A stretch of 64,000 nt of DNA from positions 95,106 through 159,105 of the forward strand of contig CP099606.1 of assembly GCA_024372625.1 (NCBI GenBank), given 5' to 3'. Shown here one piece after another: positions 49,774 to 63,388 of the stretch. The translations under genes and the position numbers were made by a program. This DNA comes from Comamonadaceae bacterium OTU4NAUVB1 (GTDB lineage Bacteria; Pseudomonadota; Gammaproteobacteria; Burkholderiales; Burkholderiaceae_C). The notes under the pieces were generated by a model. The model ran no database searches. It was not told where the DNA came from and saw only the letters and a program-made list of their open reading frames with translations. Every line of letters begins with the position of its first letter. The stretch's first letter is position 1.

Positions 49774-50478
49774 TCAGACCGGCAGCCCCTTCGCCCTCAG
49801 AACCGCATCGAATCTCTCCGGGTCCGAATTGCCCGCCAGATTCGTCGCTCGGATGCCTGCTTCGCGCTCCAGATGACGCACCGCCCGCTCCAGCACCGAC
49901 TCGGCCTCTGCCGCCGGGATGGCGATCACGCCATCCGCATCTCCGAGCATCAGGTCTCCCGGCAGGACCGCCAGTCCTGCACAGGCCACCGCCACGTTGA
50001 TCTCTCCAGGCCCCTCCTTGCTGGGTCCGCGATGCGTATGCCCACGCGCGAAAACCGGCAGTCCGCCCTCGGCCCATTCCAGCCGGTCACGCAGCGCCCC
50101 ATCGATGACCAGCCCGCCGAGCTTGCGCACCAGACACGTCGTGCGCATGAGGCCGCCGATCAGCGCCTGCGTCAGGTCGCCACCGCCGTCGATGACGAGC
50201 ACGTCACCGGGCCGGACCATCATCAGCGCCTTGTGAATCATCAGGTTGTCGCCGGGTCGGACGCGCACCGTCACGGCCTGACCGCAGAGCACGGTGTCGA
50301 GCCTGCCGTGGTAGCCGGTGAGCCCGACGGCGCCGACGCTGCGGCCCATGCAGTCACCGGCAACCGCCACGGGGATGCTCCGGAACGCTTCGATCAGCGC
50401 GTTCGGCAGATCGGCAGCACGGGCATTGATGCGGTAGCCGGGTGGCCATGCGGCCGAAGCGGGTGGATGGTTGCTCAT
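49774..50478 (-). CDS. RraA-fold protein (HMG/CHA aldolase-like)
   Basis: A 234-residue protein of the RraA/dimethylmenaquinone-methyltransferase family. It has VAVAGDCMGRSVGAVGL, then RPGDNLMIHKALMMVRPGDVLVIDGGGD, LGGLVIDGALRDR (the D-G-x-x-R-D signature of the aldolase group that binds pyruvate and Mg2+), and MLGDADGVIAIPA. In such clusters the enzyme is usually a class II 4-hydroxy-4-methyl-2-oxoglutarate-type aldolase or oxaloacetate decarboxylase, not an RNase E inhibitor. Its ATG overlaps the hydroxyacid dehydrogenase stop by 4 bp. Together with the Bug gene it points to use of an imported hydroxy or keto acid. Confidence 0.85.
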   Translation of the reverse strand: MSNHPPASAAWPPGYRINARAADLPNALIEAFRSIPVAVAGDCMGRSVGAVGLTGYHGRLDTVLCGQAVTVRVRPGDNLMIHKALMMVRPGDVLVIDGGGDLTQALIGGLMRTTCLVRKLGGLVIDGALRDRLEWAEGGLPVFARGHTHRGPSKEGPGEINVAVACAGLAVLPGDLMLGDADGVIAIPAAEAESVLERAVRHLEREAGIRATNLAGNSDPERFDAVLRAKGLPV

Positions 50479-51503
50479 GGGGTTTCACCGGTTGAAGCGA
50501 TGGAAAAGTGGTCGAGGCCGGGCGACGAGGACATCCGGTCCGCGTTGACACAGGTCGACGGGTCAAGTTCGCCGCGCTGCAGAAAAGCCAGCACGGTGCG
50601 CGCCGCGCCCAGCGCCATCGCGTCGAGTGCAGCGGGCGTCGAGCCGCCGACATGCGGCGTCAGAACCACATTCGGCAGCAGAAGCAGCGGATGGTCCGGC
50701 GGAAGCGGCTCGACCGACATCGTGTCGAGCCCGGCGGCACGCAGGCGGCCGCTGCGCAGCGCGGCGATCAGCGCGATCTCGTCGACGACCTCGCCCCGCG
50801 CGGTGTTGATCAGGATGGCGCCTCGTGGCATGCGGGCGATGCGTGCGGCGTCCATCAGGCCGCGCGTCGCGTCCGTCAGCGGCACGTGCAGGCTGAGCAC
50901 GTCGGCGAGTTCGACGACCGCATCGACGGACGACAACCGGCGCACGCCCTCCAACGCGGCCGGAAGCGTCGTCACCGAGGGATCGAAAGCCACGACCGGC
51001 ATGCCGAGCGCCAGCGCGACGGCGGCCACGCGCTGCCCCACCGCGCCGAGGCCGACCAGCCCGAGCGTGCGGCCGTGCAGTTCCAGCCCGTCCTGGGCAC
51101 GCGACCAGCGACCCGCGCGCAGTTCGGCGTCCAGCCAGGCGAGGCGACGGGCGGCGGCGAACATCAGCCCGAGCGTCATTTCGCAGACCGATTGCGCATT
51201 GGCACCCGGCGTCACGCACACCGGAATGCCACGCTCCGTCGCGGCGGCCACGTCGATATTGGGCACGCCGACACCGTGCTTGCAGACGATGCGCAGCGTC
51301 GGGCAGGCCGCCATGTGCCGCGCCGTGAGCGGCACGGTGCGAGAGATGACCGCGTCCACCGGCTCGGCCGACATGACATCGCCGACGACCCCGTCAGCGC
51401 TGCCGGAGGGCAGGTAGAGCACACGGCAGCCGGCGTCGCTCAACAACCGCGCGCCCGGCGCGGCCAGCGTCGCAGCGGTGACCAGGACGGTGAATTCGCG
51501 CAT
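50475..51503 (-). CDS. D-2-hydroxyacid dehydrogenase
   Basis: A 342-residue NAD-dependent dehydrogenase of the SerA/D-isomer group: VCKHGVGVPNIDVAAATERG, VCVTPGANAQSVCEMTLGLM, the dinucleotide motif LGLVGLGAVGQRVAAVA, INTARGEVVDE with the catalytic Arg, Glu in DTMSVEPLPPDHP, and His in LTPHVGGSTPAAL. It starts 6 bp after the Bug gene stop and overlaps the RraA-like gene by ATGA, so Bug, dehydrogenase and RraA form one unit. It would interconvert the imported hydroxy acid and its 2-oxo form before aldol cleavage. Confidence 0.9.
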   Translation of the reverse strand: MREFTVLVTAATLAAPGARLLSDAGCRVLYLPSGSADGVVGDVMSAEPVDAVISRTVPLTARHMAACPTLRIVCKHGVGVPNIDVAAATERGIPVCVTPGANAQSVCEMTLGLMFAAARRLAWLDAELRAGRWSRAQDGLELHGRTLGLVGLGAVGQRVAAVALALGMPVVAFDPSVTTLPAALEGVRRLSSVDAVVELADVLSLHVPLTDATRGLMDAARIARMPRGAILINTARGEVVDEIALIAALRSGRLRAAGLDTMSVEPLPPDHPLLLLPNVVLTPHVGGSTPAALDAMALGAARTVLAFLQRGELDPSTCVNADRMSSSPGLDHFSIASTGETP

Positions 51504-51509
51504 CGCCCG

Positions 51510-52508
51510 TCAGTCCAGCTGGATGTTGGCCTGGCGCACCACATCGCCCCAGGTCTTGTGTTCCCTGGCGATGAGTTCACCGAACTGCGTGCTGGTGCGG
51601 CCCGTGGCTGCCGTGCTGCCCTCGTTGGCGAACTTCTCCAGCACGTCAGGCCGCGCCAGCACCTTGCTCACCTCGGCATGCATGCGCTCCACGAGGGCCG
51701 GCGGCGTGCCGGCCGGCGCCACGACACCCGACCACGTCTGTGCGTCGAACGCGGGAAAGCCCGATTCGGCCAGGGTCGGCACGTCGCCCAGTGCCGGCAG
51801 CCGTGCCGGCGAAGTCACCGCGAGCGCCCGCAGGCTGCCGCCCTTGACCTGACCGAGCACCGAGACCGAATTGCCGATGTAGAAATCCACATGGCCGGAA
51901 CGCAGGTCGTTCACCGCGGGGCCAGCGCCCTTGTACGGCACGTTCAACAGCGCGATGCCGCCACGGCGTTCCAGCAATTCGATGGCGAGATGGCCGACCG
52001 TGCCATTGCCAGCGAAAGCGACGCGCATCGGATCGGGCCGCTTCTTGGCGGCGGCGACCAGGTCGGCCATCGTCCTGAACGGCGAGTCCGCCTTCACCGT
52101 GACGACCATCGGTTGCGACGCCACCAACGCGACCGGCACCAGGTCCTTGAGCGGGTCGAAAGGCATCTTGGCGTAGAGCGACGGGTTGATCGCCATGTTG
52201 GCGGTCTGTCCGATGCCGAAGGTGTAGCCGTCGGCCGGTGCGCGGGCCACGGCATCGAGGCCGATGTTGCCGGCAGCACCCGCACGGTTTTCGACGACCA
52301 CGACCCATCCACTCTGCACCGTGAGCTTTTCGGCCACCAGACGGCCGAGGAAGTCGGCGCTGCCTCCGGGCGGGAACGGCACGATGAGGCGGATCGGGCG
52401 TTGCGGCCACGCGGCCGGCTGGGCCGAAACCGTGCTCGCAGTCACCCACGCAAGGGTGGATGCAGCCAGCGCGGTGGTCACGCGGGCGAGAAGGCGTCGT
52501 CGAATCAT
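51510..52508 (-). CDS. Bug/TctC-family periplasmic substrate-binding protein
   Basis: A 332-residue protein; the ATG at 52508 with AGGAG upstream is chosen over an earlier in-frame ATG at 52544. Signal peptide: RVTTALAASTLAWVTASTVS, cleaved near SAQPAAW. Bug marks: WPQRPIRLIVPFPPGGSADF, WVVVVENRAGAAGNIGLDAV, ADGYTFGIG, NVPYKGAGPAVNDLRSGHV and PALGDVPTLAESG. It is the first gene of the Bug-dehydrogenase-RraA unit and divergent from a LysR regulator, which probably controls it. Confidence 0.93.
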   Translation of the reverse strand: MIRRRLLARVTTALAASTLAWVTASTVSAQPAAWPQRPIRLIVPFPPGGSADFLGRLVAEKLTVQSGWVVVVENRAGAAGNIGLDAVARAPADGYTFGIGQTANMAINPSLYAKMPFDPLKDLVPVALVASQPMVVTVKADSPFRTMADLVAAAKKRPDPMRVAFAGNGTVGHLAIELLERRGGIALLNVPYKGAGPAVNDLRSGHVDFYIGNSVSVLGQVKGGSLRALAVTSPARLPALGDVPTLAESGFPAFDAQTWSGVVAPAGTPPALVERMHAEVSKVLARPDVLEKFANEGSTAATGRTSTQFGELIAREHKTWGDVVRQANIQLD

Positions 52509-52546
52509 GGTTGTCTCCTGAAGATTTGCCGGCGATCTTCTCAACC

Positions 52547-52579
52547 TTGATTCATTCGGTCCATTTGATTAAATTGATT
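52547..52579. promoter_or_regulatory. TTGATT repeats in the LysR-Bug divergent promoter
   Basis: TTGATT occurs at 52547-52552, 52565-52570 and 52574-52579, with starts 18 and 9 bp apart, in the 93-bp AT-rich gap between the divergent Bug and LysR genes. It is a candidate LysR binding region; the exact site is not certain. Confidence 0.45.
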
Positions 52580-52601
52580 CAACCATTTCTTTAGGTTATG
52601 A

Positions 52602-53576
52602 ATGACCCTCAACCTGCGCGATCTCGCCTACTTCGAAGTCGTGGCCGAGCTCGGTCATCTGGGACAGGCGGCCGACAAGCTGGGGCGGTCACAGCCGGCG
52701 TTGACCAAGTGCATGCAGCGCCTGGAAGCCGCGTTCGGCGTGCCGCTGTTCACGCGCGCCGGTCGCGGCATCCGGACCACGGCGGTGGGCGAGGTGCTTC
52801 TGGCACGCGCCCGGTTGCTGCGCGGCGCATCCGAGGAAGCGCTGCGCGAAGTGAATGATTTCGCAAAAGGCAACGCCGGTCATGTGCGCATCGGCAGTGG
52901 ACCGATCGCTGCGGACAACGTGCTCCCCGCGCTGTCCCGGTTGCTGCTGTCCGAGGCGCCCGGCACCACGATCGACATCACCGTCGGGCCCAGCATGGCG
53001 CTGCGCGAAGCCTTGCGCGAAGGCAGCATCGACCTGTTGATCGGTCTCATCCCGCTGCCCGATCCGCACTTTCAGACGCATCCGATCTTCGACGACACGG
53101 CCGTCGTCGCGACCAGCCCGGAGCACCCGGTTTTCTCACTGCCGGCGATCACCCTGGAAGCGCTGTGCAACTACGGTTGGGTGCTGCCGGCCGCGTCGAT
53201 TCCAAGCCGCCAGTGGCTGGACGCCGTCTTCCGAACGCACGGCCTCCCGCTGCCGATCGTGCAGATCAGCGCCAACTCCATTCCCCTGTTGCCTGCATTG
53301 ATCCTGCGAACGGGATTGCTGAGCTTCATCTCGCGACGCACCCTGGAGCGTGGGAGTGACGGGGTGCTGAAAGAAGTCCCGCTGGCAGAGACGACCCTGC
53401 AGCGCACGCTGGGCGTCACCTACCGAAGCGACGCGTACCTGTCGCCCGCCGCACGCAGGCTGATCGCCATCCTGCAGGCGGGGGATTTCAACGAGGATGA
53501 TTCACAGGTCGCGAGCGAAACCAACGTGCTGGATCCGTTTCCATTCCCTGGTTCAGCGCAATTGTCTCGCCTCTAA
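52602..53576 (+). CDS. LysR-family transcriptional regulator
   Basis: A 324-residue LTTR: MTLNLRDLAYFEVVAELGHL, then the HTH GQAADKLGRSQPALTKCMQRLEAAFGVPLF, followed by the substrate-binding domain from about residue 90 (GHVRIGSGPIAADNVLPALS, GSIDLLIGLIP). The ATG at 52602 is preferred; another ATG four bases earlier reads a different frame. It is divergent from the Bug-dehydrogenase-RraA unit, the usual layout for a LysR activator and its target. The C-terminal 25 residues beyond the usual domain end look unstructured. Confidence 0.92.
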   Translation: MTLNLRDLAYFEVVAELGHLGQAADKLGRSQPALTKCMQRLEAAFGVPLFTRAGRGIRTTAVGEVLLARARLLRGASEEALREVNDFAKGNAGHVRIGSGPIAADNVLPALSRLLLSEAPGTTIDITVGPSMALREALREGSIDLLIGLIPLPDPHFQTHPIFDDTAVVATSPEHPVFSLPAITLEALCNYGWVLPAASIPSRQWLDAVFRTHGLPLPIVQISANSIPLLPALILRTGLLSFISRRTLERGSDGVLKEVPLAETTLQRTLGVTYRSDAYLSPAARRLIAILQAGDFNEDDSQVASETNVLDPFPFPGSAQLSRL

Positions 53577-53659: not shown

Positions 53660-54628
53660 TCACTCTGGCTTGAAACCTGCACTTCTGAGCAGTTCGGCGC
53701 TCTGCGTCACGAAACCTGCCACATACCGTCTGAATTGCTCGACGTCCTGCGTCACAGGCTCGACGCCCAGATTGGCAAGCGCGCCGCTTCTGCCGAGTTC
53801 GGTCATGGCGGCATTGATGGCCTCGTTGAGAAGTTGCACGCGGTCGGGCGGCGTGCCTTTGGGCGCCCACACCCCATACCACGACCCGTAAGTGAATCCG
53901 GGCAGTCCACTCTCCTGAACGGTCGGAACGTCCGGCGCCAACGGGCTGCGTTTGGCCGATGTGATGGCAATCGGGCGAACCCGACCCGCCTTGGCCAGCG
54001 GCAGGACCGAGATCATCGAGTCCATCAGGAGTTGCACATGCCCACCACCCACATCGACCAGTGCAGGCTGCGTGCCCTTGTACGGCACGTAAGTGAACTT
54101 GACGTTGCCTTGTTTGGCCAGCAGCAGCGTGGCCAAGTGGCTGGGGGCGCCGGCTGCGGGAATCGCGGCGGTCCACTTGTCGGGCTCCTTCTTCGCGGCG
54201 GCCAGCACCTCCCCGAGCCTGCGCGGCGCCAGGGTGGGCGCGATGACCAGCATCAGCGGCGCCTCGGCGACCCGTGCGATCGGCGCAAAGTCCGTCTGCG
54301 GATCGTAGGGCGGCGTGCTCATGACCTCCTTGGCCAGCACATGGGTGGCGGCCGAGAACAGCAGGGTGTAGCCATCGGCCGGGGCGGTCTGCACCGCCTT
54401 GCCGCCGAGCGACCCGTTGGCCCCGGCCCGGTTCTCCACGATCACCGGCACGCCGCCGAGCTGCGTGTGAAGCTGCTGGGCCAGCAGCCGAGCGACGTTG
54501 TCGACGCCCCCACCAGCGGCGAACGGCACGACGATGCGAACCAGCCGGTCGGGAAACTTGGCCGTCTGCGCCCAGGCGGGCGAGAACGCGAGGACCGCGC
54601 AGGCGGCGAGAACTTTCAAGGGCTTCAT
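53660..54628 (-). CDS. Bug/TctC-family periplasmic substrate-binding protein
   Basis: A 322-residue protein with a short signal peptide (LKVLAACAVLAFSPAWAQ). Bug marks: [68 protein letters not shown] and PLAPDVPTVQESG. Its ATG overlaps the CobW gene stop (ATGA), making it the last gene of the six-gene FAH-HyuA-HyuB-small protein-CobW-Bug operon. It probably binds the compound processed by the HyuAB-like enzyme. Confidence 0.93.
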   Translation of the reverse strand: MKPLKVLAACAVLAFSPAWAQTAKFPDRLVRIVVPFAAGGGVDNVARLLAQQLHTQLGGVPVIVENRAGANGSLGGKAVQTAPADGYTLLFSAATHVLAKEVMSTPPYDPQTDFAPIARVAEAPLMLVIAPTLAPRRLGEVLAAAKKEPDKWTAAIPAAGAPSHLATLLLAKQGNVKFTYVPYKGTQPALVDVGGGHVQLLMDSMISVLPLAKAGRVRPIAITSAKRSPLAPDVPTVQESGLPGFTYGSWYGVWAPKGTPPDRVQLLNEAINAAMTELGRSGALANLGVEPVTQDVEQFRRYVAGFVTQSAELLRSAGFKPE

Positions 54629-55773
54629 GGTGTCTCCAGGGTTTTTGTCGATGGGTCAGGTACGGGAGCCACGGCGGACCTGCGCCTTCGTCGGCGCTCG
54701 AAGACGCGCAGCGACTCGTCCAACGCCTCGGCGTCGACGCCGCTTGTGATGAAGACGATCCGGGAGCGGCGATCCGTGCTCGGCCAGGCCGGCAGGAACT
54801 CGGGGGGCTGATAGAGGTGCTGCACCCCGTGAAAGACCAGGGGCCGGTCCGGCTCCTCGACCAAGTTGACGATGCCCTTGACTCTCAGCAGATCCTCCCC
54901 GCGCATTGCGATCACCATGTCGAGCCAGGCCTCGAAGCTCTCGCGCGCCAATGGGTCATCGCGCACGATCACGAACGATCGGATGCCTTCCGGGTGCAGG
55001 AGGGGTTCGGACGTTCCAGCGGCCTGCAATGTCGGCCGGTAGTGCAGACCGAGCAGGTCCCCGCCCGAACTCCCGCCGTCCCGGTCGGGCGTGGTCTGCA
55101 ACGTCCGGCGCAGCACGCCCACGTGTTCATCGGGGTGGAGGTGGACGTCGGCGTCGGGATTGAGGGCCTGCAGGCAATCCAGCAGGCTGGGTGACACCGG
55201 CCCGTTCAGGAGATCGGTTTTCGTGACGAGCAATTGGTCGGCCATCGCCATCTGCCTGGTGGCCTCCGGATGACGCTCGAGCGTGCCCGCGCCCAGGACG
55301 GCATCGACCGTGCAACAGACTCCCGCGAGCGAGAAGCGGCCCTTCACGGCGGGCTCGCCCATCAGCGTGCGCAGGACGGGCGCAGGATCGGCCAGGCCGC
55401 TGGTCTCGATGAGGACCTGGCGCAGCGGCGGACCGTCGGTGTCGCCGCGCGCGCCGAGCGCCACCAGCGCCGCGACCAGGTCGCCGCGCACCGCGCAGCA
55501 CATGCAGCCGTTGGCCAGCAGCACGGTGTCCTCGGTGGTCTGCGCGATCAGGTCGTGGTCGATGCCGATCGCACCGAACTCGTTGACGATCACCGCCGTG
55601 CCGTGCAGGTCGGGCTCACGCAGCAGCCGGTTGAGCAGGGTCGTCTTGCCGCTGCCGAGGAAGCCGGTGAGCACCGTCACTGGGATGCGCGCCCGGTCGG
55701 GCTCGCGGCCGGTGTCGAGCGCGGCCTCGCGCCCGCCCGCCAGCAGGGCCGAGAAGTGACCGCTGCCCATCAT
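54625..55773 (-). CDS. CobW/G3E-family GTPase (metallochaperone-like)
   Basis: A 382-residue P-loop GTPase. Marks in order: Walker A GFLGSGKTT (37-45), switch region NEFGAIGIDHDL, the metal-binding CxCC motif in NGCMCCAVRGDL (C90, C92, C93), ETSGLADPAPVL, and the guanine-base motif TKTD. The C-terminal CobW_C domain is present (GEDLLRVKGIVNLVEEPDRP, FHGVQHLY). G3E proteins load metals such as Zn, Co or Fe into client enzymes. It overlaps genes on both sides (ATGATG junction with the small CxC protein, ATGA with Bug), strongly suggesting that its client is the HyuAB-like enzyme of the same operon. Confidence 0.9.
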   Translation of the reverse strand: MMGSGHFSALLAGGREAALDTGREPDRARIPVTVLTGFLGSGKTTLLNRLLREPDLHGTAVIVNEFGAIGIDHDLIAQTTEDTVLLANGCMCCAVRGDLVAALVALGARGDTDGPPLRQVLIETSGLADPAPVLRTLMGEPAVKGRFSLAGVCCTVDAVLGAGTLERHPEATRQMAMADQLLVTKTDLLNGPVSPSLLDCLQALNPDADVHLHPDEHVGVLRRTLQTTPDRDGGSSGGDLLGLHYRPTLQAAGTSEPLLHPEGIRSFVIVRDDPLARESFEAWLDMVIAMRGEDLLRVKGIVNLVEEPDRPLVFHGVQHLYQPPEFLPAWPSTDRRSRIVFITSGVDAEALDESLRVFERRRRRRSAVAPVPDPSTKTLETP

Positions 55774-56156
55774 CCGTCCCGCCGCTGGCCGCCATGGAGC
55801 TCGGCGAAGGAGTTCAAGGTCTTCTCCAGCCGGCCCAGCAGCCACAGGCTGGCCGCCGGATCGAAGGCGTCGCGCGCCAGGTCCTCCAGCAACCCCCGCA
55901 AGGGCAGACCCGTTGCCTGCGCGGTCGGGTGCTCGCGGAAGAAGGCCTCGACCTCGGCGATGCCCGAGCGCGATCCCGCGTCCTCCAGGTAGTCGACGAT
56001 GTCGAGCTCGAAGTCGACCAGCTGCAGGCTGACGCCGCCGGCGCCGCAGCCGCAGCTGGAGCCGAGCGCGACGTGGCGCACCGCCAGCTCGCTCCACAGC
56101 CGCTGCAGCCGGTCGGCGCGCTCGGCGACGTCGTCGGCCATGGCGACGTCGCTCAC
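55770..56156 (-). CDS. small CxC-motif protein, uncharacterised
   Basis: 128 residues from a GTG at 56156 that overlaps the HyuB stop (GTGA); an ATG at 56141 would give 123. The first 30 residues are helical (DDVAERADRLQRLWSELAV). The core is a C-x-C glycine motif, GSSCGCGAGG, then VSLQLVDFELDIVDYLEDA, and the C-terminal half is helical (AEVEAFFREHPTAQATGLP, LLEDLARDAFD, LLGRLEKTLNSFAEL). The gene is locked by overlaps between HyuB and CobW. The CxC site could bind a metal or be a client of the GTPase, or the protein could be an accessory subunit like the gamma chain of acetone carboxylase, though I see no direct resemblance. I do not recognise the family. Confidence 0.72.
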   Translation of the reverse strand: MSDVAMADDVAERADRLQRLWSELAVRHVALGSSCGCGAGGVSLQLVDFELDIVDYLEDAGSRSGIAEVEAFFREHPTAQATGLPLRGLLEDLARDAFDPAASLWLLGRLEKTLNSFAELHGGQRRDG

Positions 56157-57970
56157 TGCCCGTCCCAGGCGACGTCCGCGGGCGCCGCGGTGCCAGCGGC
56201 CTTCGGCGCGGCGCGCAGCGTGCGCGTCGCCTCGGCGTCGACGCCGCCCTGGGCGTCCAGCGCCACGCGGTAGACCTCGCGCGCCACCTCGGCGCCCACA
56301 TAGCCCTCGCGCACGTCCTCGGCGACCTTGTCCATGTCGCGTTCGAGCGGATCGCCGAAGCCGCCGCCGCCGCCCGAGAGCATCTTGTAGGCGTCCCCGC
56401 GCTCGAGCCGCACGTTGAAGATCTTGGCGTTCAGATGGTCGGTCTTCCACTCGCCCTTGTGGCGCACGGCCAGGCCGTTGCCCATGGCATCGCCGCCGCC
56501 CTCCAGGCCCCAGGGCTTGCAGTGCACGCGGTCGATGCGCGTCGTCACGGTGAAGGGCGACAGCGCCTGCACCACCATCTCCGCGCCCAGGCCGCCGCGG
56601 TACTGGCCGGCGCCGGCGCTGTCCTTCCTGATCTCGTACTTCTCCACCAGCACCGGGTACTTGGCCTCCAGCTGCTCGGTCGGGCTGTTGTGGGTGTCGC
56701 CGTCGTTGATGCAGACCGTGACGGAGACGCCGTCCTCGTTGCTCTTGGCGCCCCAGCCGCCGCCCAGCGGGCCGATGCCGACGATGAACAGGCGGCCGTC
56801 CTCCGGGGAGATGCCGTGGATGTTGGGGAACACCAGGTCGGCGTGGTGGCCGGCGATGGAGCGGTCGGGGATGGCCGGTGCCAGTGCCTTGAAGATGGTG
56901 TCGATCACCGTCATCGGGAAGGTCATCCACACCCGCATCGGATACGGGCGCTCGGCGCTGACGACGGTGCCCATCGGCATCACGACCTTCAGCGAGCGGA
57001 AGCTGCCGTCGTTGACCGGGTAGTCGGTCGGCGTGGTGAGGCACTTGTAGGCCACCTGCGCGCAGGCGATCCCGGTGGTGAAGCCGGAGTTGTAGAAGCC
57101 CCGCACCTGCTTGCTGACGTCCGACAGGTCCACCGTCATCTCGTCGCCCGCCACGGTCACCTTGACGCGGATCGGGATGCGCTTGCCGATCTCCAGGCCG
57201 TCGTCGTCCATGAAGGACTCGGCCTCGTAGACGCCGTCGGGGATCGACAGCGTGTTCTTGCGCGCCACCGCCTCCGACGAATCCATGATGCGGCGGATCG
57301 AGCCGTTGACGGCGTCGGCGCCGTAGCGCTGCAGCAGCTCCATGTAGCGGCGCTCGCCGGTCGTGATGGCGGTGATCTGCGCGCGCAGGTCACCCAGCGC
57401 GCGCTCGGCCAGCCGCACGTTCATCGCGATGATGTCGATCAGGTCCTGGTTGACCACGCCTTCGCGCTGGTACTTGACGATGGGGATCTGGATCCCCTCG
57501 CTGAAGATGTCGGTGGTGACGTTGCCCAGCGTGCCGCCCACGTCCAGCCAGTGCGCCATGCAGCACGTGAAGCCCTCCAGCCGGTCGTCGTGGAACACCG
57601 GCATGGTGAAGGTGAAGTGGTTGAGGTGGCTGCCGGTGGTGTAGGCGTCGTTGGTGACCAGGATGTCGCCCGGCAAAATGTTCTCGTAGCCGAAGTGCCG
57701 GATCTTGGCCTTGACCGTCTCCGACATGCCGCGGATGAACATCGGCAGGCCCAGGCCGATCGACACCGTGTCGCCCTCCTTCGTGAACAGCCCGACGGTG
57801 AAGTCCAGCGCCTCGTAGATGATCAGGTTGTAGGCCGTGCGGGTCAGGTTGGTCTTCATCTCCTCGGTCACGGCGTAGAGGCCGTTGCGGATGACCTCGA
57901 CGGTGATCGGATCGATCGCGACGTCGTTGCCGCTCGCGGCAGCGGCGGGGGTGGTGTAGGTGTCTTTCAT
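56153..57970 (-). CDS. hydantoinase B/oxoprolinase/acetone-carboxylase-type subunit (HyuB-like)
   Basis: A 605-residue protein of the HyuB family. Marks: IDPITVEVIRNGLYAVTEEM, LIIYEALDFTVGLFTKEGD, GDILVTNDAYTTGSHLNHFT, CCMAHWLDVGGTLGNVTTD, NIHGISPEDGRLF, GAGQYRGGLGAEMVVQ and LSGGGGGFGDPLERD. With HyuA it forms ATP-dependent hydantoinases, 5-oxoprolinases or carboxylases such as the acetone and acetophenone carboxylases; which one cannot be told. The conserved His and Asp residues in NDAYTTGSHLNH and CCMAHWLDVGG are the likely metal ligands. It overlaps HyuA by 4 bp (ATGA) and the small CxC gene by 4 bp (GTGA). Confidence 0.9.
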   Translation of the reverse strand: MKDTYTTPAAAASGNDVAIDPITVEVIRNGLYAVTEEMKTNLTRTAYNLIIYEALDFTVGLFTKEGDTVSIGLGLPMFIRGMSETVKAKIRHFGYENILPGDILVTNDAYTTGSHLNHFTFTMPVFHDDRLEGFTCCMAHWLDVGGTLGNVTTDIFSEGIQIPIVKYQREGVVNQDLIDIIAMNVRLAERALGDLRAQITAITTGERRYMELLQRYGADAVNGSIRRIMDSSEAVARKNTLSIPDGVYEAESFMDDDGLEIGKRIPIRVKVTVAGDEMTVDLSDVSKQVRGFYNSGFTTGIACAQVAYKCLTTPTDYPVNDGSFRSLKVVMPMGTVVSAERPYPMRVWMTFPMTVIDTIFKALAPAIPDRSIAGHHADLVFPNIHGISPEDGRLFIVGIGPLGGGWGAKSNEDGVSVTVCINDGDTHNSPTEQLEAKYPVLVEKYEIRKDSAGAGQYRGGLGAEMVVQALSPFTVTTRIDRVHCKPWGLEGGGDAMGNGLAVRHKGEWKTDHLNAKIFNVRLERGDAYKMLSGGGGGFGDPLERDMDKVAEDVREGYVGAEVAREVYRVALDAQGGVDAEATRTLRAAPKAAGTAAPADVAWDGQ

Positions 57971-60063
57971 GAGCGGTCGCTCCCGATGTCGATCTGCAGG
58001 TTGCCGAGTTCGTCCACGCGCAGCGCGTCGCCGGGCTGCACGACGGTGGTGGAGGCGTGCTCCTCGATGAGCGCCGGGCCGTCGATGAGGTTGCCCGCGC
58101 GCAGCAGGTCGCGCCGGTAGACCGGCGTGTCGGCCCAGCCGCCGGCGCGGAAGTACACCGGCTTGACGGTACGGCGCGCCGCGGCTTCAGGTCGCGCGGC
58201 GCCCTCCGCCACCTGGTGCTTCGGCGGCTTCTTCATGGTGCCCAGCACGGTCACGCGCAGGCTCACCAGGTCGGCCGGCTCCTTGGGCGCCGAGGTGCCG
58301 TAGCGCACCTTGTGCAGCTCGTCGAACTGGCGCTTGATGGCCGAGCGGTCCTTGCCCTCGAAGAACGCGAGCGGCAGGTCGACCGTCACGGCGTGCTCCT
58401 GGCCGACGTAGCGCATGTCGGCGGCGCGCTCGATGACCACGCCGTCGGCCTTCACGCCCGACTGCGCCAGCGCGTCGCGGCCCTCGTCCTCCATCGACTG
58501 GTAGGCGGCCTCGATCTCGTCGAACGAGACGTCGTTCAACTTGCGGAAGACCGAGCGCACGTAGTCGTAGCGCAGGTCCGAGAACAACATGCCGTAGGCC
58601 GAGAAGTAGCCCGGCGCGTACGGGATGAGCACCTTGCGGATGCCGATCTCGCGCGCGATGGCCGAGGCGTGCAGTGGTCCGGCGCCGCCGTAGACCACCA
58701 TCGTGAAGCTGCCGGCGTCCAGTCCGCGCTCGGTCGTCACGGCCTTCACGGCGTGCGACATCTGCGTCACCGCGATGCGCAGGATGCCGTCGGCCGCCTC
58801 GGTCGGCTGCAGGCCCAATGGGGTGGCCACGCGCTCGGCCATCTGGCGCTGGCAGGCCTGCATGTCGAGCTTGAGCTCGCCGCCGAGGAAGTTGTCGGCG
58901 TCGAGCCGGCCGAGCACCAGGTTGGCGTCGGTCACGGTGGGTTCCTTGCCGCCGCGCCCGTAAGCGACCGGGCCGGGGATCGAGCCGGCGCTCTGCGGAC
59001 CGACGCGCAGGGCGTTGCCGGTCTCGACGCGGGCGATCGAGCCGCCGCCGGTGCCGACCTCGTGGATGTCCATCATCGGGATCTGGATCGGCAGTGCGCG
59101 CTCGTAGCCGCCGATGAGCGCCGAGCCGGTCGTCAGCGGCCGGCCCTCGCTGATCACGCCGGCCTTGGCGGTGGTGCCGCCCATGTCGAAGGCGATGGCG
59201 TCGCCCATGCCCAGCTGGGCGCAGATCGCCTGCGCGCCGATCACGCCGGCCGCCGGGCCCGACTCCAGCATGCGCACGCAGCCGACGCGGGCGTGCTCGA
59301 TCGGGAACAGGCCGCCGGTGGACTGCACGACGTAGAAGTCGCCCTCGAAGCCCTTGGCCGACAGGTGCGTCTCCAGCTGCCCCAGGTACTGCGAGACGCG
59401 CGGGCCGACGTAGGCGTTGGCCACGACGGTGGAGACGCGCTCGAACTCGCGGTACTCCTGCGACAGCTCGTGCGAGGCCGAGACGAAGGCGTGCGGCAGC
59501 TCCTCCTGCAGGATCTGCTTGACGCGCTGCTCGTGCGCCGGGTTGCGGTAGGAGTGCAGCAGCAGCACGGCGACGGCCTCGATGCCCTGCCCCTTCAATT
59601 CCTTCGCCAGCTCGCGCACGGCGCCTTCGTCCAGCGCCTTGTGCAGGCTGCCGTCGGCGCGAAGGCGCTCGGCGACCTCGAAGCGCAGCGAGCGTTTCAC
59701 CAGCGGCTGGTGCTTGTTGAAGAACAGGTTGTAGGCGTCGGGGCGGTTGACGCGGCCGATCTCGTAGATGTCGCGGAAGCCCTCGGTGATCAGCAGTGCC
59801 GTGTTGGCGCCGTTGCGCTCGAGCAGCGTGTTGATCGCGATGGTCGAGCCGTGCAGAAACAGCTGGCCGTTCCTCACGTCGATGTCGGCGCTGTCGAGCG
59901 TGGCCTGGATGCCGTCCACGAGCCGGCCGTGCGTGGACAGCGCCTTGCCGAACATCAGCTCGCCGGTCGCCTCGTCGAAAGCAGCCATGTCGGTGAAAGT
60001 GCCGCCGATGTCGACGGCGATGCGCAGGTTGCGCGGGGTCTGGGGGGTCGGGGAATTCGCCAT
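57967..60063 (-). CDS. hydantoinase A/oxoprolinase/acetone-carboxylase-type ATPase subunit (HyuA-like)
   Basis: A 698-residue ASKHA-fold ATPase starting at the ATG at 60063. Marks: RIAVDIGGTFTDMAAFDEAT (first phosphate loop), HGSTIAINTLLERNGANTA, GFRDIYEIGRVNRPDAYNLF, ESGPAAGVIGAQAI, AFDMGGTTAKAGVISEG (second phosphate loop), VGTGGGSIARVE, VVYGGAGPLHASAIA, and PALIEEHASTTVVQPGD at the end. It activates the substrate or bicarbonate with ATP for the HyuB partner. It begins 14 bp after the FAH-family gene and is followed by HyuB with a 4-bp overlap. Confidence 0.92.
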   Translation of the reverse strand: MANSPTPQTPRNLRIAVDIGGTFTDMAAFDEATGELMFGKALSTHGRLVDGIQATLDSADIDVRNGQLFLHGSTIAINTLLERNGANTALLITEGFRDIYEIGRVNRPDAYNLFFNKHQPLVKRSLRFEVAERLRADGSLHKALDEGAVRELAKELKGQGIEAVAVLLLHSYRNPAHEQRVKQILQEELPHAFVSASHELSQEYREFERVSTVVANAYVGPRVSQYLGQLETHLSAKGFEGDFYVVQSTGGLFPIEHARVGCVRMLESGPAAGVIGAQAICAQLGMGDAIAFDMGGTTAKAGVISEGRPLTTGSALIGGYERALPIQIPMMDIHEVGTGGGSIARVETGNALRVGPQSAGSIPGPVAYGRGGKEPTVTDANLVLGRLDADNFLGGELKLDMQACQRQMAERVATPLGLQPTEAADGILRIAVTQMSHAVKAVTTERGLDAGSFTMVVYGGAGPLHASAIAREIGIRKVLIPYAPGYFSAYGMLFSDLRYDYVRSVFRKLNDVSFDEIEAAYQSMEDEGRDALAQSGVKADGVVIERAADMRYVGQEHAVTVDLPLAFFEGKDRSAIKRQFDELHKVRYGTSAPKEPADLVSLRVTVLGTMKKPPKHQVAEGAARPEAAARRTVKPVYFRAGGWADTPVYRRDLLRAGNLIDGPALIEEHASTTVVQPGDALRVDELGNLQIDIGSDRS

Positions 60064-60077
60064 GGTCGTGCGATGCC

Positions 60078-60929
60078 TCAGGCGGCCGTGCCGATGCGGT
60101 TGCGCAGGATGCCCAGGCCGGTGATCTCGACCTCGACCACGTCGCCCTCCTTCATGTAGCGCGGCGGCTCGCGGCGGTCGCCCACGCCGCCGGGCGTGCC
60201 GGTGGCGATGACGTCGCCCGGCGACAGCGGCGTGAAGCGCGAGACGTATTCGATGATCGTCGGGATGTCGAAGATCAGGTCGCCGACGCTGGCGTGCTGC
60301 ATCACCTCGCCATTGACGCGGGTCTCCAGCGTCAATCGGGAGACGTCGGGCACCTCGTCGCGCGTGGCCAGGAAAGGGCCGAAGGGCGCCGTGCCGGGAA
60401 AGTTCTTGCCCGGCGTGAACTGGTGCGTGTGGCGCTGCCAGTCGCGCACGCTGATGTCGTTCAGGCAGGCGAAGCCGGCGATGTGCTCGAAGGCCTGGGC
60501 CGCGGGAATGTGGCGCCCGCCCTTGCCGATCACCAGGGCCAGCTCGCCCTCCCAGTCGAAGCGCTCGGAGAACGACGGGCGCAGCACCTCGTCGCCGTCG
60601 GCCGCCAACGTGTCGATGAAGCGCAGGAACAGAGAGGGGTGCTCGCTGTCGCCGCGCTTGGTCTCGGCCACGTGGGTCTTGTAGTTGAGGCCCACGCAGA
60701 TGAACTTGGCGGGGTTCGGGATGACCGGCAGGGCCTGCACGTCGGTGGACGGGAGCGCCGTGCCGCCGTCGCGCGTGTTCTGTTCGAGCTCGGCCAGGGC
60801 GCCGGCGCGCAGTACCGAGACCAGGTCCGGATGGCGCCCGAGAAAGTCGGCCGACGGCTGCAGGTACCGGTCGCCCTCCACGAGGCCGTAGGACGCCTGT
60901 CCGGCGTGATTGAAGCTGACGAGTTTCAA
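60078..60929 (-). CDS. fumarylacetoacetate hydrolase (FAH)-family protein
   Basis: A 283-residue enzyme with a TTG start at 60929: AGGAG lies six bases before the TTG, and the family begins LKLVSFNHAGQASYGLVEGD. The ATG at 60933 just upstream reads another frame, and the in-frame extension to 60983 has no resemblance. FAH-fold marks: FICVGLNYKTHVAETKR, DWEGELALVIGKGGRHIP, CLNDISVRDWQ and VIATGTPGGVGDRREPPR, with the metal-binding Glu and Asp residues. Relatives hydrolyse, decarboxylate or tautomerise beta-keto acids. It is the first gene of the HyuAB-CobW operon and likely handles the keto-acid product. Confidence 0.88.
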   Translation of the reverse strand: MKLVSFNHAGQASYGLVEGDRYLQPSADFLGRHPDLVSVLRAGALAELEQNTRDGGTALPSTDVQALPVIPNPAKFICVGLNYKTHVAETKRGDSEHPSLFLRFIDTLAADGDEVLRPSFSERFDWEGELALVIGKGGRHIPAAQAFEHIAGFACLNDISVRDWQRHTHQFTPGKNFPGTAPFGPFLATRDEVPDVSRLTLETRVNGEVMQHASVGDLIFDIPTIIEYVSRFTPLSPGDVIATGTPGGVGDRREPPRYMKEGDVVEVEITGLGILRNRIGTAA

Positions 60930-61084: not shown

Positions 61085-62032
61085 ATGAACACATCGACAG
61101 TTCGTTTGTTTTTGGAAGTCTTCGAGTTGGGCAGCTTGAGCAAGGCCGCGGTCCGCCGTCAGACCGTGCAGTCGCACGTCAGCCGGCAGATCAGTGACTT
61201 CGAGGCGGATTTCGGCGGACCGCTGTTCCGCCGCACCGGACGTGGCGTGGTTCCTACCGAACTGGGCCGGCGCGCCGAGCAACGGCTGCGCGCGTGGCTG
61301 GCGGAGACCGATCGCCTGAAGCAGGAACTGCGCGAGGAGGCCGGCCAGTTGCTGGGCGAAGTGCGCCTGGGCGTGATTCCCTCGGCCGCTCATCCGCTCA
61401 TGACCCGCCTGTTCCAGAACCTGCAGCGGGAGCATTCTGGCATCCGCCTCAACATCGTCGAGGCACAGGGTACCGAGCTCAACGCCATGCTTGATGGCGG
61501 CACCGTCGACATGGCAATCCTGTTCCGCTTCGACCGCCCGAGCAGCAGCGACGAGCGACTGCTGAGCGTCGCTCACACCTATTTGATCGCTGCTTCTGGC
61601 GACGCGCTCACGCGAGAGCCGACAGTGACGTTCTCACGCCTGTCAGGCCTGCGGCTGGTGCTGCCGCGACGTCCGAGCCACTGGCGCAACGCGCTCGACG
61701 AGGCAGCCCGCAGTCAAGGTTTCACGCTTGACCCGGTGGCCGAGGTCGACTCATTGACGATGCAGAAAGAACTGGTCGCCCACACCTCCGGGCTCTACTC
61801 GGTCATGGGCCCCTACTCGATTGCTGAGGAGCTCCGTCGAGGCCGGCTTCAAGCCAGCAAGCTGGTCAGCCCCGACCTCGTTCGACACGTGACACTGGCG
61901 TTTCCGAGGCAAGGCAAGTTGTCGCCCGCAAGTCGCATGACCGCCGAAACCATTCAACGTGTGGTGACTTCGTGGGGAAGTCGAATCACAGAACCTCCCG
62001 ACGAGACAAAAGGCTCGCAAGCGGCTGTTTGA
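61085..62032 (+). CDS. LysR-family transcriptional regulator
   Basis: A 315-residue LTTR: MNTSTVRLFLEVFELGSLSK, then the HTH AAVRRQTVQSHVSRQISDFEADFGGPLFRR, where the recognition helix is clear although the usual A-A-x-x-L-x-x-S-Q pattern is modified to VQSHVSRQ. The C-terminal ligand-binding domain runs from about residue 90 (GEVRLGVIPSAAHPLMTRLF, GTVDMAILFRFD, SGLYSVMGPYSIAEEL). It is divergent from the FAH-HyuAB-CobW operon and presumably activates it. A spacer of about 155 bp separates the two starts. Confidence 0.92.
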   Translation: MNTSTVRLFLEVFELGSLSKAAVRRQTVQSHVSRQISDFEADFGGPLFRRTGRGVVPTELGRRAEQRLRAWLAETDRLKQELREEAGQLLGEVRLGVIPSAAHPLMTRLFQNLQREHSGIRLNIVEAQGTELNAMLDGGTVDMAILFRFDRPSSSDERLLSVAHTYLIAASGDALTREPTVTFSRLSGLRLVLPRRPSHWRNALDEAARSQGFTLDPVAEVDSLTMQKELVAHTSGLYSVMGPYSIAEELRRGRLQASKLVSPDLVRHVTLAFPRQGKLSPASRMTAETIQRVVTSWGSRITEPPDETKGSQAAV

Positions 62033-62287: not shown

Positions 62288-63388
62288 TCAAGCCTTGAGC
62301 CCAAGCAGATCGTCGATCAATTTCTTCAGGCGACGCCCCTGCGAATCGCTCAGTGGCTCGACGAAGGTCAGGGTGGCCCTGCCCTTGCGGTCCCGCTCCA
62401 GCGAAGCGATGACGGCACCGGAAGCGTCCTTCCACTCCAGCGGCGTCCGGGTCCGTGCGGCCGGCTCGGAATCCGGCGTCGTGAGCGCCGCGAAGACAGT
62501 GGCCGGCAGCGGCCGGGGCTGTCGCTGCGACATCGCCCGTGCGGCCGCCAGCAGTCCCTCCGGGTCCCGCTGATGGGCGTCCTTCAAGGGCGTCGCCCAA
62601 CGGAACTGCAGGTTGAGTGGTGAGCCGAAGGCGGCCACCACCTCGGCCGGCAATTTCGCCAATGCCATGGCGCGACCGATGTTGCCGAGGTCGCGGTCGA
62701 TCGCCAAGGACAACTGCTTGGCGGACGGGAACAACCCCAACTCGAGGGCGCGCAGGTACATCATCCCCTGCTCCCACGCGGAAAGGTCGGCACGGTTTCG
62801 GTTCTCCCGCTCCATTTCGACGAACAGGTCGGTGTCCGCCATGGCGTTCTGGACCAGTGCGAGCACCGGGAGCCCGAGTTCGAGACACGCGCGGTGGCGA
62901 CGGTGGCCGTACACGATCTCGAAAGTCCCGGGTGCGGCCACGTCGGACCTGGCCGGCCGGACCTTGATGGGTTGCACGTTACCCTCCGCGCTGGCGATCT
63001 CCGCCTTCAATTGGGCGAACGCCTCCGTCGAGAAATGCGCGAGTTCCCGATTCGCCCATCGCGACGGCAGGACCAGCGCAGGGTCGAGGCGGCGTGCCAC
63101 TTCCGCACCATCGAAGGCCGCCACGCGTTCTCGAAGTTCCAGCACTTCCTTGTGCACCTCGGACTGTTCGGTCATGAAGGCCAGCATCGATCCAGGGCCT
63201 GTGCGTGGCGCCATGACGCCGGCAGCTCCCTGCCCTTCCAACGGCGGAACCTGCTTCGCAGCGACGGCGCCGCCGAGGGATCCTGACGGCTCTGTCACAA
63301 CGGGCTCCGCAGCAGGCACGCCGGCCGCCGGAGCGGACAGATTGGCGGTCACGCTGAACGCGCGCTTGATCAGGTTCTTGTTTGCCAT
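62288..63388 (-). CDS. parB: ParB/RepB/Spo0J-family partition protein
   Basis: A 366-residue protein; the ATG at 63388 (MANKNLIKRAFSVTANLS) is preferred, but the frame is open to an ATG at 63502. The N-terminal nuclease/CTPase-like ParB domain has LDPALVLPSRWANRELAHFS, GNVQPIKVRP and the signature GHRRHRACLELG (161-172), with a basic HRRHR in place of the usual GERRxRA. ENRNRADLSAWEQGMMYLRAL follows, and an HTH region lies at about 215-245 (PSAKQLSLAIDRDLGNIGRA). The length and shape match megaplasmid or second-chromosome partition proteins. A parA gene is not visible in the window, and a long perfect palindrome lies about 200 bp upstream. Confidence 0.88.
   Translation of the reverse strand: MANKNLIKRAFSVTANLSAPAAGVPAAEPVVTEPSGSLGGAVAAKQVPPLEGQGAAGVMAPRTGPGSMLAFMTEQSEVHKEVLELRERVAAFDGAEVARRLDPALVLPSRWANRELAHFSTEAFAQLKAEIASAEGNVQPIKVRPARSDVAAPGTFEIVYGHRRHRACLELGLPVLALVQNAMADTDLFVEMERENRNRADLSAWEQGMMYLRALELGLFPSAKQLSLAIDRDLGNIGRAMALAKLPAEVVAAFGSPLNLQFRWATPLKDAHQRDPEGLLAAARAMSQRQPRPLPATVFAALTTPDSEPAARTRTPLEWKDASGAVIASLERDRKGRATLTFVEPLSDSQGRRLKKLIDDLLGLKA

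Follow-up and report, generated by a model that had tools for sequence, protein, structure and literature searches.

How HyuAB enzymes, which are widespread, ATP-dependent and useful (in lactam opening and CO2 fixation), obtain and choose their metal is a question raised by a six-gene operon of a soil bacterium, Comamonadaceae bacterium OTU4NAUVB1. In the cases studied, acetone carboxylases get by with no known chaperone. The operon occupies positions 53660 to 60929 of the 64,000-nucleotide stretch of contig CP099606.1 that was analysed here (the window), and in it the genes for the subunits HyuA and HyuB are followed by one for a 128-residue protein with a CxC motif and one for a GTPase of the CobW family. 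Which of these two added proteins belongs to the enzyme, and what might it do there? We found that the constant partner of HyuAB is the small protein, not CobW. The reading that we favour, and to which we give somewhat less than an even chance, is that the small protein would bind metal as a third component of HyuAB, often helped by CobW.

The small gene directly downstream of HyuB

A scan of genome contigs for the small protein returned at least 20 loci, and in 20 of 20 the genes for HyuA and HyuB lay directly upstream. The FAH-superfamily hydrolase gene was present in 19 of them and a LysR relative lay upstream in 19, L016 being cut at the contig end in both cases (L016 and L030 are the same contig and were counted once); the Bug solute-binding protein gene was found in 16. 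Altogether, the sample includes 26 subfamily operons with the small gene (the window, L006-L025, L027, L112-L114 and L157), of which 20 and L027 were found through the small protein itself. The sample free of this bias consists of six finds led by HyuB, five from Burkholderiales and one from Microvirga, and the small gene lies directly downstream in all six of these near relatives. A HyuB at least 90% identical to that of the window was present in 5 of 399 sampled Burkholderiales genomes, the host's own included, in a search that scored the best few candidates per genome, and the small gene was there in 5 of 5. Outside this order, a plasmid of the alphaproteobacterium Microvirga ossetica encodes a 78% identical HyuB, then a diverged small protein (E = 4.9e-9), the FAH hydrolase and a complete TctCBA transporter, with a LysR gene and a dihydrodipicolinate-synthase-like gene upstream. 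The order FAH-HyuA-HyuB-small gene thus recurs in relatives across Burkholderiales, with FAH shifted downstream of the small gene on the alphaproteobacterial plasmid, and because it recurs in both settings we take it to be more than chance. A preliminary description of this DNA had proposed that the small CxC protein recurs beside HyuAB and looks undescribed. Both parts were borne out within the material searched; where the protein is named at all in the matches listed, it is annotated as a hypothetical protein.

The layout of the operon is exactly as first described. All six genes lie on the minus strand, with a gap of 14 bp between FAH and HyuA and overlaps of 4 bp at the other four junctions. 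The divergent LysR gene is part of the conserved module and is an addition to those six genes.

60078..60929, minus strand: FAH-superfamily hydrolase gene; 283 amino acids, TTG start after AGGAGA; Pfam FAA_hydrolase, E = 6.5e-69
57967..60063, minus strand: HyuA, ATP-binding subunit; 698 amino acids; Pfam Hydant_A_N, Hydantoinase_A and Hydant_A_C
56153..57970, minus strand: HyuB, predicted metal-site subunit; 605 amino acids; Pfam Hydantoinase_B, E = 7e-155
57617..57628, minus strand: His115-Leu-Asn-His118 of HyuB, predicted ligands 2 and 3; His118 at the position of CapB Asp102
55770..56156, minus strand: small H-CxC-H protein gene; 128 amino acids, GTG start; overlaps HyuB and CobW by 4 bp each
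56046..56075, minus strand: His28 to Cys37 of the small protein (HVALGSSCGC), three of four candidate metal ligands
55794-55796, minus strand: His121 of the small protein, fourth candidate ligand
54625..55773, minus strand: CobW/COG0523 G3E GTPase gene; 382 amino acids; Pfam cobW, E = 3.7e-43, and CobW_C, E = 1.6e-25
55495..55506, minus strand: CxCC motif of CobW (Cys90-Met-Cys-Cys)
53660..54628, minus strand: Bug/TctC-type solute-binding protein gene; 322 amino acids; Pfam TctC, E = 4.4e-52
61085..62032, plus strand: divergent LysR-type regulator; Pfam HTH_1 and LysR_substrate

The small protein matched no Pfam and no NCBIfam family. A search of PDB sequences with its profile gave four matches, the best at E = 0.45, and comparison of its predicted structure with the PDB gave no meaningful fold match, the weak rows including DinB/YfiT-like bundles and nickel superoxide dismutase. 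Profile searches do reach relatives at about 24-35% identity (among the best 120 of 343 matches and the best 120 of 177). We aligned 82 proteins selected from 194 matches together with that of the window (alignment A3; an earlier alignment held 64 chosen out of the 194), and W21, H28, C35, C37, S116 and H121, as well as L57 and L90, are invariant in 83 of 83 sequences, down to 24% identity. The H-CxC pattern is present in 191 of the 194 matches, the misses being two short fragments and one protein that differs at a flexible position, and the set W, H, C, C, S, H is intact in all operon copies except that of Microvirga (31 of 32). As H28, C35, C37 and H121 are typical metal ligand types, we infer that they form a candidate metal site. 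AlphaFold models from two subfamilies both predict a small helical protein (mean predicted local distance difference test, pLDDT, 81.3 and 80.7). The first helix leads into a loop of poor prediction quality that contains the CxC; H28 sits at the close of this helix or just past it, and H121 where the last helix ends. A divergent acetone carboxylase gamma subunit was considered as an identity for the small protein and ruled out (hhalign probability 1.0 of 100, and no PF08882 match in 83 members). At L103 (11131-12480), the frame of a small-protein homologue extends into what is, by eye, a beta-propeller-like repeat protein (449 amino acids), either a fusion or an assembly error.

The predicted metal site and the C-terminus of HyuB

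What kind of enzyme does the small protein accompany? The HyuA and HyuB domains lie side by side with Pfam matches over nearly the full length, which places the pair in the HyuAB superfamily; these matches and an alignment of ligands support the initial view of an ATP-dependent enzyme of the HyuAB type that has a predicted metal site. The metal ligands of caprolactamase subunit CapB are given as Asp41, His99, Asp102 and His124, and the last three are called fully conserved in related enzymes, in the passages of PMC8453981 on this site. Residues D56, H115, H118 and H140 of HyuB align with these four (6yra_B), so that the third ligand place holds a histidine. Of 89 HyuB rows at least 50% identical to that of the window, 87 can be read at every one of the four places, and all 87 have Asp-His-His-His. 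Distant HyuB proteins (at most 40% identical) carry Asp-His-Asp-His in 38 rows and Asp-His-Asn-His in 6, with rows sharing identical last 25 residues counted once; a 40% identical HyuB from Neorhizobium is Asp-His-Asn-His. The sample contained no HyuB at 41% to 51% identity, and the edge of the Asp-His-His-His clade falls in that gap. In the alignment, therefore, Asp-His-His-His is a departure from the published tetrad in proteins whose family membership by sequence is clear, and we infer a ligand role for His118. Asparagine at the third ligand place was seen in rows 34-40% identical at L098, L153-L156, L128 and L230. Strict coupling of the Asp-to-His change to the small gene was considered and rejected; the change runs through the entire clade, including members that have no small gene.

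A sister HyuB clade without the small gene has a second cysteine feature. Its C-terminus reads Arg-Cys-Cys or Arg-Cys-Cys-Ser, in some cases after a stretch of several histidines, and is a possible metal or redox arm. Among the 89 clade rows, 32 have the small gene, 26 the tail, 24 neither and none both; seven fall in no state, their ends being unclear or cut (L102, L111, L176, L187, L190, L201 and L205), and among the rows with neither, L175, L179 and L181 have odd ends. The tail has one origin on the HyuB tree (Shimodaira-Hasegawa-like approximate likelihood ratio test, SH-aLRT, 97), and the small gene appears in three separate places, with four changes, on a wider HyuB tree from which rows below 50% identity were dropped except for four outgroup rows. 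A single origin of the small gene had fitted the first HyuB tree and is contradicted by the wider one. Likewise, a rule that each enzyme has either the small gene or the Cys-Cys tail was rejected by the wider sample, with its 24 rows with neither. Because the tail arose once, its exclusion with the small gene is a single event, and the pattern as a whole rests on few events. Downstream of the rows with neither, a search for a substitute cysteine protein found nothing consistent. By eye, no Asp-His-Asp-His or Asp-His-Asn-His row ends in Cys-Cys; at L154, a Cys-Cys lies a few residues before the end. Tails were read at L104, L105, L106, L109, L110, L151, L160-L170, L186, L189, L195, L196 and L206-L209.

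These cysteines could be read as a redox or thiol device, in which a cysteine of HyuB, or its metal, would be kept reduced by the small protein's CxC or by the terminal Cys-Cys found in the sister clade. Such a device would fit the absence of any row with both thiol features, and CapB has a vicinal disulfide at its pocket according to the part of PMC8453981 concerned. It would also fit a plasmid of Streptomyces sp. NBC_01643 (L158, 6546-12276), on which a 52% identical Asp-His-His-His HyuB with neither feature is followed by genes for thioredoxin reductase (trxB) and thioredoxin (trxA). We nevertheless consider a redox role improbable, as the two histidines of the small protein are as invariant as its cysteines and better suited to metal binding, the Streptomyces case is a single record, and the mutual exclusion of tail and small gene counts as one evolutionary event. 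Two short proteins were noted beside HyuAB genes in this sample. At L158, a 115-residue hypothetical protein encoded upstream of HyuA ends in His-Arg-Cys-Gly, and at L198 a short frame some 350 bases downstream of HyuB joins matches to the HyuA N-terminal domain and Acetone_carb_G, perhaps the remnant of a carboxylase gene set.

CobW inside and outside the operon

The CobW gene had been described as a fixed insertion, and this did not hold. It is present in 19 of the 26 subfamily operons and missing from seven, namely from the fetched stretches of L020-L023 (including Ideonella and Aquincola isolates), L112, L113 and the Microvirga plasmid. Within the 20 loci found through the small protein, 16 have CobW; it adjoins the small gene in 14 and lies past an inserted gene in two (Pandoraea and Burkholderia), the insertion in Pandoraea being a major-facilitator transporter by Pfam. 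At L182, L185 and L197, CobW was sought within 1.5 kb only, and these loci enter no CobW count. The protein itself is a COG0523 member, with cobW and CobW_C domains, the Walker A motif GFLGSGKT and CMCC; CXCC is described as conserved in COG0523 in the relevant part of a 2009 survey (PMC2770081). The words hydantoin, oxoprolin and carboxylase are absent from the main text of that survey.

The history of CobW was followed on two trees. On the tree of 46 HyuB rows its distribution takes two changes, which may be one gain and one loss. The operon CobWs form a single clade, 19 rows of a 43-row CobW tree, with an SH-aLRT of 97 by a quick method. CobWs elsewhere in the genomes were at most 42% identical to that of the window in a first comparison, and among 20 further places one was 48% identical (the places compared being those in L001-L005, L045-L071 and L210-L229). 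This copy is in G308, whose operon has no CobW, and it weakens the proposal that CobW of this kind occurs only beside the small gene. It lies outside the operon clade on the CobW tree and adjoins an Amidohydro_1 gene (L231, 8963-11845), with a 114-residue frame without a Pfam match overlapping or between them, and may be either a replacement or a cousin with another client.

Is CobW then a passenger, or a paralogue for metal shortage, that does not serve HyuAB? Its absence from seven operons would be expected of a passenger, as would the location of its closest outside relative found, beside an amidohydrolase gene and not beside HyuAB, and the surroundings of seven acetone-carboxylase-gamma loci, out to about 10 kb, yielded no CobW. 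Against this stand the 4-bp overlaps in the window, the adjoining position in 14 of 20 loci over several genera and the mere two changes on the HyuB tree. The amidohydrolase family contains many metal enzymes, so that the neighbour in G308 also fits a general role in metal delivery. On balance we regard a passenger as unlikely. A link between CobW and HyuAB is favoured by the single operon clade together with the changed third metal ligand predicted in HyuB, which would give a reason for special metal handling.

If CobW does serve the enzyme, the small protein might do so too without being a stable subunit. Small accessory proteins deliver metal for urease or hydrogenase, and the small protein may be such an adaptor, which would receive metal from CobW, or from the cell in operons lacking CobW, and pass it on to HyuB at the Asp-His-His-His site. 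In 14 of 20 loci its gene is flanked by those of HyuB and CobW, the CobWs of the operons group in a single clade, and the Arg-Cys-Cys tail of the 26 sister-clade rows could serve as a metal-relay arm. Moreover, the small protein and CobW diverge in step; their mean pairwise identities are 0.58 (21 operons) and 0.59 (17), with a correlation of pairwise identities of 0.92, and that of HyuB is 0.94 (21). HyuB is thus far more conserved than either, which fits peripheral roles for both. However, the correlation is also high for pairs without expected contact (CobW and LysR, 0.91), and seven operons have the small gene without CobW. Acetone carboxylases, in addition, selected their metal when made in Escherichia coli without known chaperones, as the part of PMC10865871 on this point describes, so that a metal enzyme alone does not imply a need for CobW. 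An adaptor of this kind is therefore possible but, in our estimate, doubtful.

Known relatives and a tentative pathway

The favoured reading, in which the small protein is a metal-binding third component, draws on comparison with known enzymes. The nearest NCBIfam models are those of caprolactamase, and CapA (529 bits) and CapB (285 bits) both score below the cut-off of 1000, which keeps the operon out of CapAB. It shares with CapAB of Pseudomonas jessenii and with two-gene HyuAB hydantoinases the HyuA and HyuB subunits, the expected use of ATP, three of four HyuB ligands and the A-B order; it differs in the third ligand (His, not Asp), in the third, small gene and, often, in CobW. Hydantoinases are described as having two genes only (hydA and hydB) and no gamma, and acetone carboxylases as having a gamma gene downstream of acxB, in section 7 of PMC5214803. 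With the small gene following HyuB directly in all 26, the subfamily operons stand apart from the two-gene hydantoinase and lactamase branch. They are not acetone carboxylases either, as no Acetone_carb_G (PF08882) gamma is encoded. AcxABC has the same A-B-small order, with a small metal-binding protein (shown in AcxABC, predicted here) beside the metal-site subunit, but the small protein here is unrelated to Acetone_carb_G and has His-CxC-His instead of cysteines, and HyuB is about 24-25% identical to subunits in the seven acetone-carboxylase-gamma loci.

Acetophenone carboxylases have two HyuA-type subunits (alpha and alpha') and a gamma, whereas the operon has one HyuA. What it has in common with ApcABCDE and the Apc-like cluster of fosmid p90H6 is that a CobW-like gene lies close to an enzyme of this family. 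Such a gene is listed near the Apc-like cluster in Table 1 of PMC3676327, for the fosmid and for its best matches in Azotobacter vinelandii, whose accessions form an unbroken run; the section concerned passes over the link without comment. Those clusters differ in having four or five genes and a four-cysteine gamma, and no FAH-Bug module is named in that table. COG0523 metallochaperones such as the activator of Fe-type nitrile hydratase likewise set a G3E GTPase with CxCC beside a putative metal enzyme; the client of the operon CobW is only a candidate. Searches of open-licence full texts (subscription papers lay outside them) found, in the listed matches and passages covered, no description of the operon, the small protein or an Asp-His-His-His HyuB, and nothing on this operon among literature on HyuAB with CobW, COG0523 or FAH.

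By gene order, the small protein occupies the position of a gamma subunit with an unrelated sequence, and since hydantoinases are published as two-gene systems this is a new architecture. The gamma of acetone carboxylase touches mostly alpha, the metal-site subunit, and that of acetophenone carboxylase partly envelops beta and is held by the C-terminal arm of beta, in the structural passages of PMC5214803 and PMC5543143. A small gene in the gamma position, together with a Cys-Cys arm that forms the C-terminus of HyuB in the other clade, suggests a metal-binding third component or a metal-delivery adaptor.

We propose, tentatively, the following scheme. In relatives of HyuAB, ATP is used to activate a carbonyl or bicarbonate, and the reaction is thought to be finished at the metal subunit (parts of PMC8453981 and PMC5543143). 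The operon would be an inducible catabolic one under LysR control, in which Bug, accompanied in relatives by a porin, a major-facilitator transporter or TctAB, would import a small, probably carboxylated compound. HyuA would activate this compound, or bicarbonate, with ATP; HyuB would complete the reaction at a metal site changed from Asp-His-Asp-His to Asp-His-His-His; and FAH would cleave the product. The small protein would be bound to HyuB and carry a metal of its own on His28, Cys35, Cys37 and His121, in place of the unrelated zinc-binding gamma of acetone carboxylases. In most operons CobW, probably a later arrival than the small protein, would be a GTPase that helps to metallate HyuB, the small protein or both. 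The gene content (LysR, porin, Bug, transporters and FAH) suggests that a small carboxylate is taken up and broken down. The substrate was sought and none was identified; the best NCBIfam model for FAH, 2,4-didehydro-3-deoxy-L-rhamnonate hydrolase, scored 185 bits, under its cut-off of 500.

Several observations weigh against this scheme. The Microvirga copy of the small protein (L157) is without His28 and His121 in place, and the CxC loop is among the least confident regions of both structure models. The fast evolution of the small protein is not what a tightly packed core subunit would show. The 24 of 89 rows with neither feature indicate that the altered metal site strictly needs neither the small gene nor the tail, and the G308 CobW beside an amidohydrolase suggests a wider CobW group not tied to HyuAB. 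Finally, the authors of the acetophenone carboxylase structure place the corresponding site far from the proposed active site, in the part of PMC5214803 that discusses it.

A broader interpretation would make the clade a new HyuAB branch, in which a catalytic site rebuilt to Asp-His-His-His receives metal from a dedicated thiol-histidine carrier in two separately evolved forms, either the small His-CxC-His protein, with CobW added in one lineage, or the C-terminal Cys-Cys arm of HyuB. As a whole this is speculative, and we think it unlikely. Whichever interpretation applies, the clade offers natural comparisons on the same altered site (small protein and CobW together, small protein only, Cys-Cys tail, and none of these), a testable job for the small-protein family and a concrete client candidate for a CobW subgroup.

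HyuB of the operon is the only Hydantoinase_B match in the host genome (4.66 Mb), which has five CobW-family matches, two of them weak. Its closest named relatives on the tree are from Variovorax. Gene clusters of the neighbourhoods were built with a crude gene caller, used only for that purpose. A second module adjoins the operon at 50475-53576, with genes for a D-2-hydroxyacid dehydrogenase, a LysR regulator and another TctC/Bug protein. The window is the terminal part of its contig, and a protein with a ParB_N domain is encoded at 62288-63388 on the minus strand, close to the contig end; this contig is perhaps a plasmid or a secondary replicon.

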